Below are positions 34,749-60,776 of a DNA stretch of 64,000 nt, one piece after another (within the stretch, counting starts at the first letter, position 1; the number at the start of each line of letters is the position of its first letter). This DNA comes from Treponema sp. Its GTDB lineage: Bacteria > Spirochaetota > Spirochaetia > Treponematales > Breznakiellaceae. The stretch lies in the NCBI GenBank assembly GCA_009780855.1, contig WQZG01000003.1:21875-85874 (forward strand). Reading direction: 5' to 3'. The notes beneath the pieces are model-generated. The model was not told the DNA's origin. It did no database searches and saw only the letters and a program-made list of their open reading frames with translations. The position numbers and the translations under genes are program-made.

Positions 34749-35901
34749 TCCGCTGATTACAACTGTAGAAGGACTCCCGCAGCCGCTTGCCGCTTTTGTC
34801 AGCCCCGAAGAAAAAAAATATATTGAAGAAATAAAGCGGCGCGGCGGACTTCCGTTTGCGGTTACCCAGCATTTTGCCTCCCTTGCCCGCCCGTTAAAAG
34901 ATGATCCGATAAGACGGCAGTTCTTTCCAGACCCGGCAGAAGCCCTGCCGGATTCTTTTGGCCTCGATGATCCGCTGGGCGAACACCTGTACAACGCGGC
35001 GCCGCGGCTGGTTCACCAATACAAAGACCGCGCATTGCTTCTTGCGTGCGGCGCCTGTTTTGGTTATTGCCGGTATTGTTTTAGGAGGATGTGGCTGGCC
35101 GGCGGTTTGCCGTTTATTAATACCGATGATGAATCCGCAAAATTACGGCCTGCCGAACTGCGGTCCGCAATTCTGCGGCCAGCAATTTTGCCGCCGATTC
35201 TTGCGTATCTTTGCTCTCATCCGGAAATAAATGAAATTCTTGTATCTGGCGGCGATCCTCTAACCGCCGGGAATGACCGGCTTGGTAAGCTGTTTGCCGC
35301 GCTGCGCCGCGCCCGGCCCGCAATCCTGCTGCGTGTCTGCACCAGGGCGCCGGTTACAAACCCTGCACGGCTTTGCGAAGAAACCATTGCCATGTTCCGG
35401 CAATACCGCCCGCTGCGTGTCGTAATCCATCTCAATCATCCGCGCGAACTATCGGTTCCATGCCGCGAACGGCTTGCCGCCTGCGCTGCCTCCGGTATCC
35501 CTGTATTGGTGCAGACGGTTCTGCTGCGCGGAATCAATGACGATCCCGCAGTCCTGGCGGAACTGATTGAAAACTGTCTGGATTTAAAATTGATCCCGTA
35601 TTATCTGTTCCAGCTTGACCTGGCGCCCGGTACAAGGCATTTCAGGGTTCCGCTGGAACAGGGACTGGCCGTTTACCGGGATTTAGAAAAAATGTTTGGC
35701 CGCCCCGGCGCAGCCGCCGGTTTTGGTCCGGGCCCGGACCTTGACAGAAAGCTGCCGGTTTACGCTGTTGACCTACCTGGCGGCGGCGGTAAAATCAGGC
35801 TGCATGATGGCGTCATTGCCGGCCGCAGGACAACGGCGGCAGGGCAGGTTTATCTGTTACGGGACAGCAACGGGAAGCTGTGGGAGTATCCGGAGAATTA
35901 A
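34741..35901 (+). CDS. KamA/EpmB-like lysine 2,3-aminomutase family radical SAM protein
   Basis: ACGACFGYCRYCFRR radical SAM cluster, EILVSGGDPLTAGND, RVVIHLNHPREL; ATG 34741 overlaps the VOC gene. Confidence 0.9.
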   Translation: MNDPLITTVEGLPQPLAAFVSPEEKKYIEEIKRRGGLPFAVTQHFASLARPLKDDPIRRQFFPDPAEALPDSFGLDDPLGEHLYNAAPRLVHQYKDRALLLACGACFGYCRYCFRRMWLAGGLPFINTDDESAKLRPAELRSAILRPAILPPILAYLCSHPEINEILVSGGDPLTAGNDRLGKLFAALRRARPAILLRVCTRAPVTNPARLCEETIAMFRQYRPLRVVIHLNHPRELSVPCRERLAACAASGIPVLVQTVLLRGINDDPAVLAELIENCLDLKLIPYYLFQLDLAPGTRHFRVPLEQGLAVYRDLEKMFGRPGAAAGFGPGPDLDRKLPVYAVDLPGGGGKIRLHDGVIAGRRTTAAGQVYLLRDSNGKLWEYPEN

Positions 35902-35971
35902 AAGCAATTAAGTTGCAATTAAAAGCAATTAAAAGCAATTAAAAGCAATTAAAAGCAATTAAAAGCAATTA
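35896..35971. repeat. 10-bp tandem repeat (aaaagcaatt; five perfect units plus degenerate ones)
   Basis: Read directly between convergent genes; spans both stop codons. Confidence 0.97.
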
Positions 35972-37576
35972 AGTCAAAACCCATTTTGCACCGTGTGTTT
36001 TACCATTCAGTTTGATCTTCTTTTCGTCTCTGAGTTCACGTAATAAAATTTGGAGTTGTGTCCGGGAATGGCCCGGTAATACTTGGTATAATTCCTTTAA
36101 TTGAGTGCCTTCATTTCCATTTTTTCGGATATGCTTCAGAATCAGCTCTTTATTTGTCTCTCTGTCCAGCCCAACAATCCTGGTATGTACTCCTGATTTC
36201 CCTGCCGCAGTATATAAACTCCTGGCCAGTACATATTTATTCCGGCTTATTTTTTCGATTATGCCCATATCTATTAAATTTTTTATGCGTAAATGCATAT
36301 TTTTTGAGAGTTTTTCTTCATGAAAAAGTGCATTTATTGTTAAAAAATCATCAGTTGACAGTGATTCCAGGCGCTCATTGCCAATTTTATTTATTAATAA
36401 TAACATTTGCTTATCGAGGATCATACCGTTTAACGTAATACATACAAAGTAGTCATCCGTTCCCCCAAAGTCAGGTAATGGTTTTGCTTCCTTTACACTT
36501 AATTCATATATCAGGTTCATACCCTGGCCCGATCGTTCAACCAAACCGCAAAGTGCGAATATTTGTGCGATTCTGCGGTTCCTAGGAGACTGCCTGTCAC
36601 GAATATTTGAAAGAGTTACGCCTGCCGGTAAACCGCCCGGATTTTCCACAACAAGTCTGTCACGGTATTGGCGTATGAATATACTTCCGTTTAGCTGATA
36701 ATTTCTGTGACTGACCGCATTTAATAACGACTCTCGAACAACCCGTTCGTTGAATGTTGGTATATCAAAAATAAATAAACCATCCTGATAATGCTGTTTA
36801 TCGTTGCGCAAATTTATGAGTTCCCATATGCGATTATAATAAGAAAAAAATCCCATGCGGAATTCTTCTCTTTGCTGTGCTGGGCCGGAAGCCTCGGATG
36901 ATCGGTATTCAAAAATAATCTCCGATTGCGGCAAAAGGCGTCCCAGAGAGGATCTTTTTCCAAATAATACCAACGCTGCATATGTAATCTCATCATCAAT
37001 CATAGCTTCAATATCATTCAATAACTGATAAATTGTTAGATTTTTACTACTGGTGTTACCGCTTTTTTCCATCCATTTTTTACGGAATACTTCAATTGCT
37101 TCTATATCCAAATCATTAACAGAAGCGCCCGGGCAAATGTCATTGGAAAAGTCGTGGCCGGTTTCATCAAATATTTTACGTAATTCTTCCGCAGGCATGG
37201 GTACAAGGCTGTCCCCCTGCCGCCACCAAAATCTGCCGTCTGCCTGTACAGGCATCCCGGCTGGACGGCCTGCAATCTCAAAGACAAGGACCCGTTTCCC
37301 CAGATATTCATAAAGCTGAAAATCTACATTGATATGCAGTTTTTCAATTAATCCCTTTCTTGTACGTTCCGGCTGTTCAAATGCTGCACTCCCAACTATC
37401 TTACGGGGACGGCTGTCTGTTATACCGAGTACCAGTTTACCGCCGCCGCAATTTGCCAATGCGCAGCAATATTTTAAGGTCTCCTGGATGTCAAATTTGT
37501 TTCTGGCTTCTTTGAACTCATAGTGTTCTCCTTCAGGGGCGTTTAGCAGTTCTTCAATGGTTTCGTTGAATTTCAT
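35969..37576 (-). CDS. AlbA_2/Schlafen-like ATP-binding/putative DNA-binding protein
   Basis: EGEHYEFKEARNKFDIQETLKYCCALANCGGGKLVLGITD, LLNAVSHRNYQLNGSIFIRQYRDRLVVENPGGLPAGV. Confidence 0.88.
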   Translation of the reverse strand: MKFNETIEELLNAPEGEHYEFKEARNKFDIQETLKYCCALANCGGGKLVLGITDSRPRKIVGSAAFEQPERTRKGLIEKLHINVDFQLYEYLGKRVLVFEIAGRPAGMPVQADGRFWWRQGDSLVPMPAEELRKIFDETGHDFSNDICPGASVNDLDIEAIEVFRKKWMEKSGNTSSKNLTIYQLLNDIEAMIDDEITYAALVLFGKRSSLGRLLPQSEIIFEYRSSEASGPAQQREEFRMGFFSYYNRIWELINLRNDKQHYQDGLFIFDIPTFNERVVRESLLNAVSHRNYQLNGSIFIRQYRDRLVVENPGGLPAGVTLSNIRDRQSPRNRRIAQIFALCGLVERSGQGMNLIYELSVKEAKPLPDFGGTDDYFVCITLNGMILDKQMLLLINKIGNERLESLSTDDFLTINALFHEEKLSKNMHLRIKNLIDMGIIEKISRNKYVLARSLYTAAGKSGVHTRIVGLDRETNKELILKHIRKNGNEGTQLKELYQVLPGHSRTQLQILLRELRDEKKIKLNGKTHGAKWVLT

Positions 37577-41089: not shown

Positions 41090-41959
41090 GTGAAAAAGAT
41101 CGAGCCTTTTGAGGTTATTTTTGAAAATGAAAACATAATCGCTGTTAACAAGGTTTCCGGCATAGCCGTCTGCGCCGACCGCTGGGACGATTCCAAAGAA
41201 CGGCTTGACCGGCTGGTTGGTGCGCTGCCTGGTGCGGGCAAAATTTTTATTATTCACCGCATTGACCGCGATACATCAGGGCTGGTCGTGTTCGCCAAAA
41301 ATTCCGATACCCATAAAAAACTTTCCGCAGCTTTTGAAGGCAGAAAAATCGTCAAGCGTTATTTGGCCGTGATCCGCGGCAGGCCGGCCTGGAAAGAAAC
41401 GGTCTGTGATTTGCCCCTGGTTCCGGACGGCAATAAAAAACACCTGACCATAATAGACAAGTACCAAGGGAAAAAATCCCTGACCCGTTTCCGTCTTTTA
41501 TGCACCGCCGGCAATTACAGCATTGTCGAAGCAATTCCTGAGACCGGCAGAACCCACCAGATCCGCGTCCACCTCGCCAGCATGGGGCATTCCGTTGTCT
41601 GTGATGAATTTTACGGCAACACGAAACCCCTTTTTTTATCCGCCATAAAATCCGGCTGGCGCGGCAACCCCGCAGAAGAGCGGCCGCTGCTTGCCCGTCT
41701 TGGCCTGCACGCCGCTGAACTTTTAATACCGGATTTCTTTGCAGCCGCTGCCTCGGCTCCGGCTGACATGACTCCGGCGGGCGCGGTTGCCGCTGCGGAA
41801 ACTGCTGCCCCGGCAGATACTGCCGCGGGGATTGCCGCTGGCAGAGACCTATTATTGCGGGCCCCTGTACCCAGAGACATGGCCGCCCTGATAAACCAAA
41901 TGGAAAAATGCTCGGGCGTTTCTTTTAATGATTCGCTTTTCGGCGGCGCTGTTTCCTGA
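41090..41959 (+). CDS. RluA-family pseudouridine synthase
   Basis: HRIDRDTSGLVVFAKNSDTHKKL, PETGRTHQIRVHLASMGHSVVCDEFYG. Confidence 0.94.
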   Translation: MKKIEPFEVIFENENIIAVNKVSGIAVCADRWDDSKERLDRLVGALPGAGKIFIIHRIDRDTSGLVVFAKNSDTHKKLSAAFEGRKIVKRYLAVIRGRPAWKETVCDLPLVPDGNKKHLTIIDKYQGKKSLTRFRLLCTAGNYSIVEAIPETGRTHQIRVHLASMGHSVVCDEFYGNTKPLFLSAIKSGWRGNPAEERPLLARLGLHAAELLIPDFFAAAASAPADMTPAGAVAAAETAAPADTAAGIAAGRDLLLRAPVPRDMAALINQMEKCSGVSFNDSLFGGAVS

Positions 41960-43698
41960 TGGCCGCATTAAAGCCGTTTGTTAAATGGGCCGGAGGCAAG
42001 CGCCAGATATTACCGGAGATTCACAAATACCTGCCTCCCGATATTGAAGGCCGCACCTATTATGAACCTTTTATCGGCGGCGGCGCCCTGTTGTTTGATC
42101 TTATGCCAAAAAAAGCGATAATTAACGATATTAACTCCGAATTGATGCTCTCGTACACGGTTATACGGGACAATGCAGAAGATTTAATTTCAATACTAAA
42201 AGAACACCAAAGGCAATATAACGCCGATTATTATTATAATATCCGCGGCCAGACTAATTTGCAGAATAATATTGAAAAGGCCGGCCGTTTTATTTTTCTG
42301 AATAAAACATGTTATAACGGATTGTACCGCGTCAATTCGCAGGGGTTCTTTAATGTTCCGGCAGGGAAACATAAAACACTTAATATCTGCGAAGAACAGC
42401 TCCTGCGTTCTGTAAGCGCATATTTAATGTCCGCCGAAATCAAAATTACCAATACAGATTTTGCGGAAGCAGTTGCCGGCGCTGATAAAAATTCATTTGT
42501 ATATTTTGATCCGCCGTATCACAGTCTTAAAAAAACAGGTTTCAGCGCGTACCAGGCCGGCGGGTTCGGTGAAGCTGAGCAGATCCGTCTGCGTGACCTG
42601 TTTGTGCGTCTTACTGCTCAGGGAATTCCATGTTTACTTTCCAACGCGGACACTCCTTTTATCCGTGAAATATATGGGCAGAAAGATATCCATTTGGTCA
42701 GTGTAAAGTCCCGCCGTTTTATCAATTCGGACAAGGGCGGACGCGGCAGTGTATATGAATTGTTAATCATGAATTACGACTGCGGACATGAAAATAATTT
42801 AGGACAGGATAATTTTGGACATGACAAAACAGATCAAATGAACATTACTTATAAACAGTTTGAACCTGAAAATTTATCGGCGGTAATGGAACTTCAGAAT
42901 GAATGGTTTTTTGAAAACATTACTTGCGGAGTTGTGCCGGACGCGGCTGACGAAATACTGCGATTCCCAAAAGAATTTTTTTTTATAGCCGCAGATAATA
43001 AAAAAGTAATCGGCTATGCGGCTTCAGAAGTTATCAAAGACAATAAATATAACGTGTTTCCAAAAGGCGCAGAATATTTAAGCGTAAATGACCTTTATAT
43101 TTCCAAAGATTACCGCAGCAAGGGTATTGGCGCAAATTTGCTTTCCATGACCGAGGAAAAAGCCCGGGAATATGGCTTGCAGGACATTTTTATATCATCG
43201 GCAACGAAGGACGCGGCTGCTGTTAGGGAGTTCTACCAGCGTAACGGATATGGCGTCTGGACAACATTGTTTTATAAACGCAATGAATGGGACACGCGTA
43301 CTTATCCGCTTGGCGAACTGGACGGTTACCGATTTGTGGTAATTTTCGCCCGTTACATGGACAAATGGCTTTACTGCCGCGCCAGGGAACGGAATGTTTA
43401 TGAAACTCCCGGCGGGCATATCGAAAAAGATGAAACGCCACTGGAAGCCGCCAAACGCGAGCTATTCGAAGAGACCGGCGCCGCAGAATACGAAATAAAA
43501 CCGGCTTTTGATTACTCGGTTCATACGCCGGAGGAGTTTTCCAACGGCCAGGTCTTCCTGGCAAATATCCAAAAACTGGGCGCTATGCCGGATTACGAAA
43601 TGGCGGAAGTCAAACTTTTTGACACTATACCCGAAAAAATGCGGTTCCCGCAGATATTGCCCGTGCTGTTTAAGAAGATTTTGGATTTTTCTGATTGA
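41959..43698 (+). CDS. Tri-domain fusion: Dam-type DNA adenine methylase - GNAT acetyltransferase - Nudix hydrolase
   Basis: FVKWAGGKRQILPEI, YFDPPYHSL (DPPY); GNAT DLYISKDYRSKGIGANLLSMTEEKA; Nudix box GGHIEKDETPLEAAKRELFEETGA; one uninterrupted ORF. Confidence 0.93.
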   Translation: MAALKPFVKWAGGKRQILPEIHKYLPPDIEGRTYYEPFIGGGALLFDLMPKKAIINDINSELMLSYTVIRDNAEDLISILKEHQRQYNADYYYNIRGQTNLQNNIEKAGRFIFLNKTCYNGLYRVNSQGFFNVPAGKHKTLNICEEQLLRSVSAYLMSAEIKITNTDFAEAVAGADKNSFVYFDPPYHSLKKTGFSAYQAGGFGEAEQIRLRDLFVRLTAQGIPCLLSNADTPFIREIYGQKDIHLVSVKSRRFINSDKGGRGSVYELLIMNYDCGHENNLGQDNFGHDKTDQMNITYKQFEPENLSAVMELQNEWFFENITCGVVPDAADEILRFPKEFFFIAADNKKVIGYAASEVIKDNKYNVFPKGAEYLSVNDLYISKDYRSKGIGANLLSMTEEKAREYGLQDIFISSATKDAAAVREFYQRNGYGVWTTLFYKRNEWDTRTYPLGELDGYRFVVIFARYMDKWLYCRARERNVYETPGGHIEKDETPLEAAKRELFEETGAAEYEIKPAFDYSVHTPEEFSNGQVFLANIQKLGAMPDYEMAEVKLFDTIPEKMRFPQILPVLFKKILDFSD

Positions 43699-59204: not shown

Positions 59205-60713
59205 ATGAACCGAATCATTATCAATGTAGCCGGAGCAAGTTCACGGATAAGCCGCCACATTTACGGCCATTTTTCCGAGCACCTTGGCCGCTGTATTTAC
59301 GGCGGTTACTGGGTAGGGCCGGATTCCCCGATTCCCAATGTCCGGGGTATACGCAAAGATGTTGTGGATGCGTTAAAAAAGATAAAAATTCCCAATCTGC
59401 GCTGGCCCGGCGGTTGTTTCGCCGACGAGTACCACTGGAAAGACGGAATCGGCCCGCGCCCCGGACGCCCCAAAATGATAAATACCCACTGGGGCGGCGT
59501 TATAGAAGATAATGGTTTTGGCACCCACGAATTCCTTGATTTATGCGAACAGCTTTCCGAGCTGGGCAGTCCTCGCTGCGAGCCCTATATCTGCGGAAAT
59601 GTCGGCAGCGGTACTGTGCAGGAACTGTCGCAATGGGTGGAATATTGCAATTTTGACGGCATTAGCCCCATGGCCGAGCTTCGCAGAAAAAACGGCCGTG
59701 AAAATCCCTGGAAAGTCAGGTTCTGGGGAATCGGCAACGAGAACTGGGGCTGCGGCGGGAACATGACCCCGGAATTCTACGCCGACAATTACCGCCGTTA
59801 CGCGGTTTATACCAGAAAATACGAAGATACAACTCCATTTAAAATTGCCTGCGGCCCCAACAGCGATAACTACAGATGGACAAAAGTTATGATGGAAAAA
59901 ACCTGCTCGGAACGCGGCAATAACCCGGACGGTCTGGCCCTTCATTATTATACTGTCCCCGGCGAATGGGGCCATAAGGGTTCGGCCGTGCATTTCAACG
60001 AAGCTGAATGGTACGCGACCATGCACAAGGCCAATTTTATGGACGAGCTTATAACCAGGCACTGCGCGATAATGGACGAGTACGATCCCAAGAAAAAGGT
60101 TTCCCTGATTGTGGACGAATGGGGAACCTGGTACGACGTGGAACCCGGAACCAATCCCGGCTTTTTGTACCAGCAGAATACCATCCGCGACGCCCTGGTA
60201 GCCGGCATTCATTTAAATATTTTCAACAATCATTCTGAACGTGTAAGCATGGCCAACATTGCCCAGACAATAAATGTGCTGCAGTCGGTCATTTTTACAG
60301 ACGGCGATAAAATGATGCTTACCCCTACATACCATGTTTTTGATATGTATAAGGTGCATCAGGATGCCCTAAAACTGCCGGTTCATGTTGAATCAAAAAC
60401 CAACCACACCGGCCCGTCAACCGTTCCGGCGATTACGGCCAGCGCCTCCGAGGATGACAACCGCAAGGTTCATATTTCCCTGACCAATATTGAACTGAAT
60501 AATGAACTGCCGGTTCAGCTTGATATCCGGGGCATACCGCTCAAATATAACGGCGGCACCATAATTACATCGGAGAACATGAACGATCACAATACATTTG
60601 AGCAGGGGAGCAAAGTCAGGATAGGTGAATTCAAAGGCGCTGTGACATCGCACGGCGGCAGATATACCCTCAATTTGCCCCCCAAATCAGTTGTTACACT
60701 GGAACTGGAATAA
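59205..60713 (+). CDS. Alpha-N-arabinofuranosidase (GH51)
   Basis: [66 protein letters not shown]. Confidence 0.95.
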
Positions 60714-60776
60714 CGACGGCTCTGCAAGAGACGACGGCTCTGCAAGAGACGACGGCTCTGCAAGAGACGACGGCTC
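60714..60776. repeat. 18-bp tandem repeat cgacggctctgcaagaga x3.5
   Basis: Perfect copies read directly between convergent GH51 and serA-like genes. Confidence 0.98.

Follow-up and report, generated by a model that had tools for sequence, protein, structure and literature searches.

The stretch of DNA analysed here, referred to as the window, comprises 64,000 nucleotides of a contig from a Treponema sp., and one of its genes encodes a Dam-family methyltransferase, a GNAT acetyltransferase and a Nudix domain on one chain (Table 1). The frame opens with the ATG at 41959, closes with the stop codon at 43696-43698 and contains no internal stop. An initial annotation had described this locus as a single frame with a complete Dam-like domain, a GNAT and a canonical Nudix box, a description borne out by the uninterrupted 579-aa frame and by the profile matches given below. 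Judged from their sequences, all three domains are full length and carry the motifs expected of active enzymes. The gene is preceded by one for an RluA-family pseudouridine synthase, whose stop codon overlaps the Dam start (TGATG), so that the two probably form one operon with translational coupling. The next gene downstream codes for a sulfatase and lies on the opposite strand.

Table 1. Positions in the window of the fused gene, its parts and the gene upstream of it.
Feature	Position	Strand	Basis
RluA-family pseudouridine synthase, upstream of Dam	41090..41959	+	ORF and profiles
Fused ORF Dam-linker-GNAT-Nudix, 579 aa, complete	41959..43698	+	ORF reading
Dam-family adenine-N6 DNA methyltransferase, aa 1-274, full length	41959..42780	+	Profiles; relatives end at aa 272-274
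Dam catalytic motif IV DPPY, aa 184-187	42508..42519	+	Invariant in a 29-row alignment
Linker, aa 275-293, CGHENNLGQDNFGHDKTDQ	42781..42837	+	Without counterpart in Dam or GNAT relatives; low GC3
Degenerate 15-bp repeat within the linker, about 2.3 copies	42794..42827	+	16/19 matches at offset 15
GNAT acetyltransferase domain, aa 294-441, begins at M294	42838..43281	+	PF00583 profile, alignment of relatives
GNAT acyl-CoA-binding motif A, R-x-x-G-x-G-A, aa 386-392	43114..43134	+	Direct reading
Nudix domain, aa 442-579, YtkD/BsRppH-like, clostridial-type fused clade	43282..43695	+	Profiles, tree, structure model
Canonical Nudix box, aa 486-508	43414..43482	+	By eye and aligned relatives

The N-terminal part of the protein is matched by the Dam profile TIGR00571 with 278.7 bits (cut-off 114.85) over aa 5-272, which covers positions 2-267 of the 267 in the profile, and PF02086 matches aa 10-248. 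In the alignment with 28 relatives, the DPPY motif (D184 P185 P186 Y187), the FxGxG motif (F38, G40, G42) and the NG-L-x-R-x-N hairpin (N120, G121, L122, R124) are invariant. On the other hand, the window Dam departs from its relatives at 7 of the 78 columns conserved among them, N140T and P141L included, against a median of 1; some more distant Dams depart at as many of these columns or more, and a slightly relaxed constraint on the window enzyme is possible. No cognate endonuclease gene adjoins it, the neighbours being those for RluA and the sulfatase, and a search of the genome for the DpnII family of nucleases found no member. The enzyme is probably an orphan adenine-N6 methylase, and its target is probably GATC. 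The frequency of this tetramer in the window (236 observed, 246 expected) shows no depletion and is uninformative on the specificity of the enzyme. Among the other palindromic tetramers counted, CTAG is strongly scarce, with 11 occurrences in 64 kb as against 114-236 for most of the others and 64 for ACGT.

The surroundings of Dam genes vary among the relatives. At L006 (211-1503, minus strand), for example, a stand-alone Dam relative is followed directly by a gene that PADLOC assigns to a Type II restriction enzyme (DUF6996/DUF6997/DUF7226), and in two other loci (L009 and L013) the sequence past the Dam stop reads by eye like the restriction-enzyme protein of L006. Such neighbours indicate that some Dams of the family belong to restriction-modification pairs, and the window Dam does not. 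Another example is L008 (667-1455, minus strand), where a Dam relative is followed by a gene for an RluA-type pseudouridine synthase; in the window the RluA-type gene comes before Dam, and tblastn gave no match between the two synthases.

The reading of the gene as a fusion is supported by comparison with other Dams. Dam was sought (E <= 1e-20) in 200 genomes belonging to the same family and occurs in 74 of them, this one included; in the 73 others the protein stands alone, with frames of 261–405 aa for full-length matches and shorter ones for genes that are cut, whereas the frame in the window measures 588 aa. The C-termini of these relatives fall at aa 272-274 or no more than a few residues from aa 274, except for one that extends about 10 residues further. 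Four of the long frames (L093, L099, L100 and L104) were checked, and their extra length is upstream open frame with no added domains. Nor did any Dam bear a GNAT or Nudix tail when 393 genomes sampled from the phylum were searched. The search for the Dam–GNAT–Nudix architecture, which had been proposed as a check on the locus and was run on the family and on the phylum sample, thus returned this genome alone; the genomes searched held no second listed member of the genus of the window.

Between the Dam and GNAT domains lies a linker with a GC content of 0.333 and a GC3 of 0.158 (0.449 in the Dam part and 0.412 in the GNAT part), values expected of former intergenic DNA, which is what this stretch may be. 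The initial annotation had called the linker a degenerate repeat of about 15 bp. The periodicity is real: shifted by 15 bp, the sequence agrees with itself at 16 of 19 positions, a score equalled or beaten in 0.77% of 57-bp tiles of the window and in 0.05% of codon shuffles. It is also weak and short, spanning roughly 34 of the 57 bp, and Tandem Repeats Finder did not report it even at score 30. The proposal that two neighbouring genes became fused through expansion of this repeat across a former stop accordingly divides into two parts. Fusion past the Dam stop agrees with the ends of the relatives, and expansion as its mechanism is weak, because the repeat is short and degenerate and there is no unfused sister locus to compare. 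M294 had been suggested to be the ancestral GNAT start, and indeed a stand-alone GNAT relative begins at this position. An internal start at M294 that would yield two proteins was considered and rejected, there being no Shine-Dalgarno sequence ahead of it; some other genes here also have none. Other repeats occur elsewhere in the window: a perfect 18-bp tandem repeat of 3.6 copies (ACGACGGCTCTGCAAGAG) at 60713-60776, right past the stop of an arabinofuranosidase-like gene and before a convergent dehydrogenase-like gene, and a 10-bp tandem repeat of 7.6 copies (AATTAAAAGC) at 35896-35972.

The GNAT domain is matched by PF00583 over aa 308-431 (52.4 bits, cut-off 20.7) and contains RSKGIGA at aa 386-392, which we take to be the acyl-CoA-binding motif A of this superfamily. 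The stand-alone relative mentioned above (L156, a 160-aa frame with 41% identity over its full length) comes from the same clostridial family as the Nudix relatives, a match that weakly suggests a shared source for the two domains. When the GNAT part alone was used as query, in a search run without a positive control, no match was obtained in 341 genomes of the clostridial class. A ready-made GNAT–Nudix donor gene was found neither among 344 genomes from the clostridial order nor among 200 from the own family, and phages, plasmids and viral contigs yielded matches to the Nudix part and no GNAT–Nudix relatives. Since GNAT relatives and Nudix relatives occur apart, the join between these domains, which are separated by only a few residues, is in its turn a second fusion, so that the idea of two fused neighbours holds as regards fusion and falls short as regards their number.

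The Nudix domain is matched by PF00293 (40.1 bits, above the curated cut-off, aa 471-509), and the canonical Nudix box reported earlier was found intact both by eye and in the alignment (G486-x5-E492-x7-R500-E501-L-x-E504-E505-x-G507-A508), where it is conserved in the relatives. With the YtkD profile TIGR02705 it scores 57.9 bits against an equivalog cut-off of 154.4, and is therefore a relative of YtkD and not a member of that family. The best solved relative of its profile is BsRppH (E 8.9e-18), and an AlphaFold model of the domain (pLDDT over 90) has B. subtilis BsRppH/YtkD as its best structural match. On the basis of this likeness, and not of membership, its substrates are likely to be nucleotides or 5'-triphosphate RNA. 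The chain was folded from two separate alignments; the models left GNAT unfolded, few relatives having been aligned for it, and are hence uninformative on contacts between domains.

The nearest relatives of this Nudix domain are 55–67% identical and come mainly from one clostridial family, in which the GNAT–Nudix query found matches in 20 of 38 genomes. A maximum-likelihood tree built from 54 Nudix domains places that of the window within a clade of 18 rows (support 99/88), and all 17 of the others belong to multidomain proteins: 7 have a histidine phosphatase at the N-terminus, in some cases along with a second Nudix, 3 have a P-loop kinase, and 7 are Nudix–Nudix proteins (representatives were confirmed by Pfam and the rest assigned by eye from sequence). 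One clade-mate, a histidine phosphatase–Nudix protein (G178), comes from the window's own family, and the window domain pairs with a protein of the same architecture from the clostridial order (L145) with a support of 99/77, which is below the double threshold. In other branches of the same Nudix family the partners are GNAT, M24 peptidase, C39-like peptidase, HAD hydrolase and a DUF6198 membrane protein. By its sequence relationships, then, this Nudix is a module that changes partners, and as the members of the clade are mostly clostridial, it was likely passed on from Clostridia. The YtkD-like multidomain clade as a whole (L138-L151, L086/L133 and L178/L184) is found mostly in one clostridial family and in spirochaetes, often with a second Nudix at the C-terminus.

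Taken together, these data are best explained by a real gene fusion in one lineage, in which an orphan Dam, a GNAT and a YtkD/BsRppH-like Nudix would act as three largely independent tethered heads, a reading to which we give a probability of about two in three. An orphan Dam gene, the second of an RluA–dam pair, would have lost its stop codon, and its frame would now continue through a short, formerly intergenic linker and a complete GNAT, to which a YtkD/BsRppH-like Nudix pyrophosphohydrolase is joined in turn. In such a protein, Dam would add an N6-methyl group to adenine, probably in GATC, the Nudix head would strip pyrophosphate from nucleotides or from 5'-triphosphorylated RNA, and GNAT would acetylate some substrate. 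The fusion would fix the co-expression and the stoichiometry of the three heads, and chemical coupling between them would not be needed. Tethered, independent heads are favoured because the Nudix relatives pair with unrelated partners and no Dam elsewhere needs such a tail.

That a fusion took place is well supported by the sequence, and the main caveat is the draft assembly (201 contigs, 96% complete, 5.9% contamination). An artefact of assembly or binning, in which an erroneous base has erased a stop in what are really two or three separate neighbouring genes, would account for an arrangement seen in a single draft genome and nowhere else. Nevertheless, runs of 5 or more identical bases are absent from the vicinity of the linker, the junction stays in frame over 19 codons with no Shine-Dalgarno sequence before M294, each of two joins would need its own explanation, and only a few residues separate GNAT and Nudix. 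The codon usage of the three domains (log-likelihood of -1.08 for Dam, -1.03 for GNAT and -1.05 for Nudix) is uniform and equals that of the window (mean -1.105, sd 0.053), which argues against a chimeric contig, and on balance an artefact is improbable. A neutral or decaying fusion, in which the tail is baggage that the cell tolerates and either Dam or the tail alone is still of importance, is likewise unlikely. Its uniqueness to one genome and the seven departures of Dam from conserved columns would fit such a view, as would two published surveys: one (PMC6922389) counts the Nudix, acyl-CoA N-acyltransferase and SAM-methyltransferase superfamilies among the promiscuous domains of bacteria, and the other (PMC4921024) sets fusions of promiscuous domains apart as among the less functionally informative. 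Three full-length domains with intact motifs and no frameshift speak against it.

The initial annotation had also raised, as a speculation, a role in adenine hypermodification like that of phage Mom. In such a coupled DNA-modification enzyme, GNAT would acylate adenine or the product of Dam, and the Nudix head would clear modified nucleotides before they could enter DNA. The presence of three enzymes with intact motifs on one chain is compatible with this idea, and sanitising of the nucleotide pool is chemically possible in that YtkD is described as an atypical nucleoside triphosphatase in the title of a work cited in PMC5389931. However, no Dam of the family or of the phylum sample has such a tail, GNAT matches generic acetyltransferases only in Pfam, NCBIfam and PHROGs, and the adjoining RluA and sulfatase genes are neither phage nor defence genes. 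In addition, phosphatases, kinases, GNATs, peptidases and a membrane protein all occur as partners of related Nudix domains, so that the presence of this domain says little about its partner. We regard the idea as unsupported and very improbable, and equally remote is the wider proposal that methylation, acyl transfer and pyrophosphohydrolysis work together on DNA or on DNA precursors, as in the acylation of adenine or of a DNA-bound protein at GATC.

The Dam–GNAT–Nudix protein is probably undescribed, being absent from the other genomes and from the literature searched; it combines known parts in a new way in a single genome, and its biochemical coupling is unsupported. Were the coupling functional, this would be, to our knowledge, the first Dam with such a tail. 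The main value of the fusion that we favour is as a marker of a branch of YtkD-like Nudix domains whose sampled members are all fused and that swaps its partners (histidine phosphatase, P-loop kinase, a second Nudix, Dam–GNAT) across Clostridia and spirochaetes. On this branch, the question of whether promiscuous fusions serve a function is a tractable one.

Several known systems share parts of this arrangement. With Dam and DpnM (TIGR00571) the window enzyme has in common the full-length domain, DPPY, FxGxG and the GATC-reading hairpin, DpnM (2dpm) being its closest solved structure and 2g1p another solved protein of this type; the sampled relatives are stand-alone, whereas the window Dam bears a tail of 305 aa. 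YtkD/BsRppH (4jzu, 4jzs) is the best profile and structural relative across the whole of the window Nudix, but the latter scores far under the equivalog cut-off and belongs to a multidomain clade. The histidine phosphatase–Nudix(–Nudix) and P-loop kinase–Nudix proteins of Clostridia and the histidine phosphatase–Nudix proteins of spirochaetes of the same family (L086/L133) lie in the same clade, with Nudix domains 55-67% identical to that of the window, although their N-terminal partner is a phosphatase or a kinase and not Dam–GNAT. Both superfamilies of the tail occur on one chain in Nudix–GNAT proteins (L134, of the same spirochaete family, L171 and L173), so this pairing exists elsewhere; in these, however, the order is reversed, the Nudix branch is more distant and the GNATs are others (Acetyltransf_3 in L134). 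Finally, phage Mom, which modifies adenine with a GNAT fold, has been placed in a survey of jumbo phages as a family of its own inside the GNAT superfamily (PMC7824862). That superfamily is its only likeness to the window GNAT, which has a typical motif A and whose matches in Pfam, NCBIfam and PHROGs are all to ordinary acetyltransferase families, none of them labelled Mom.
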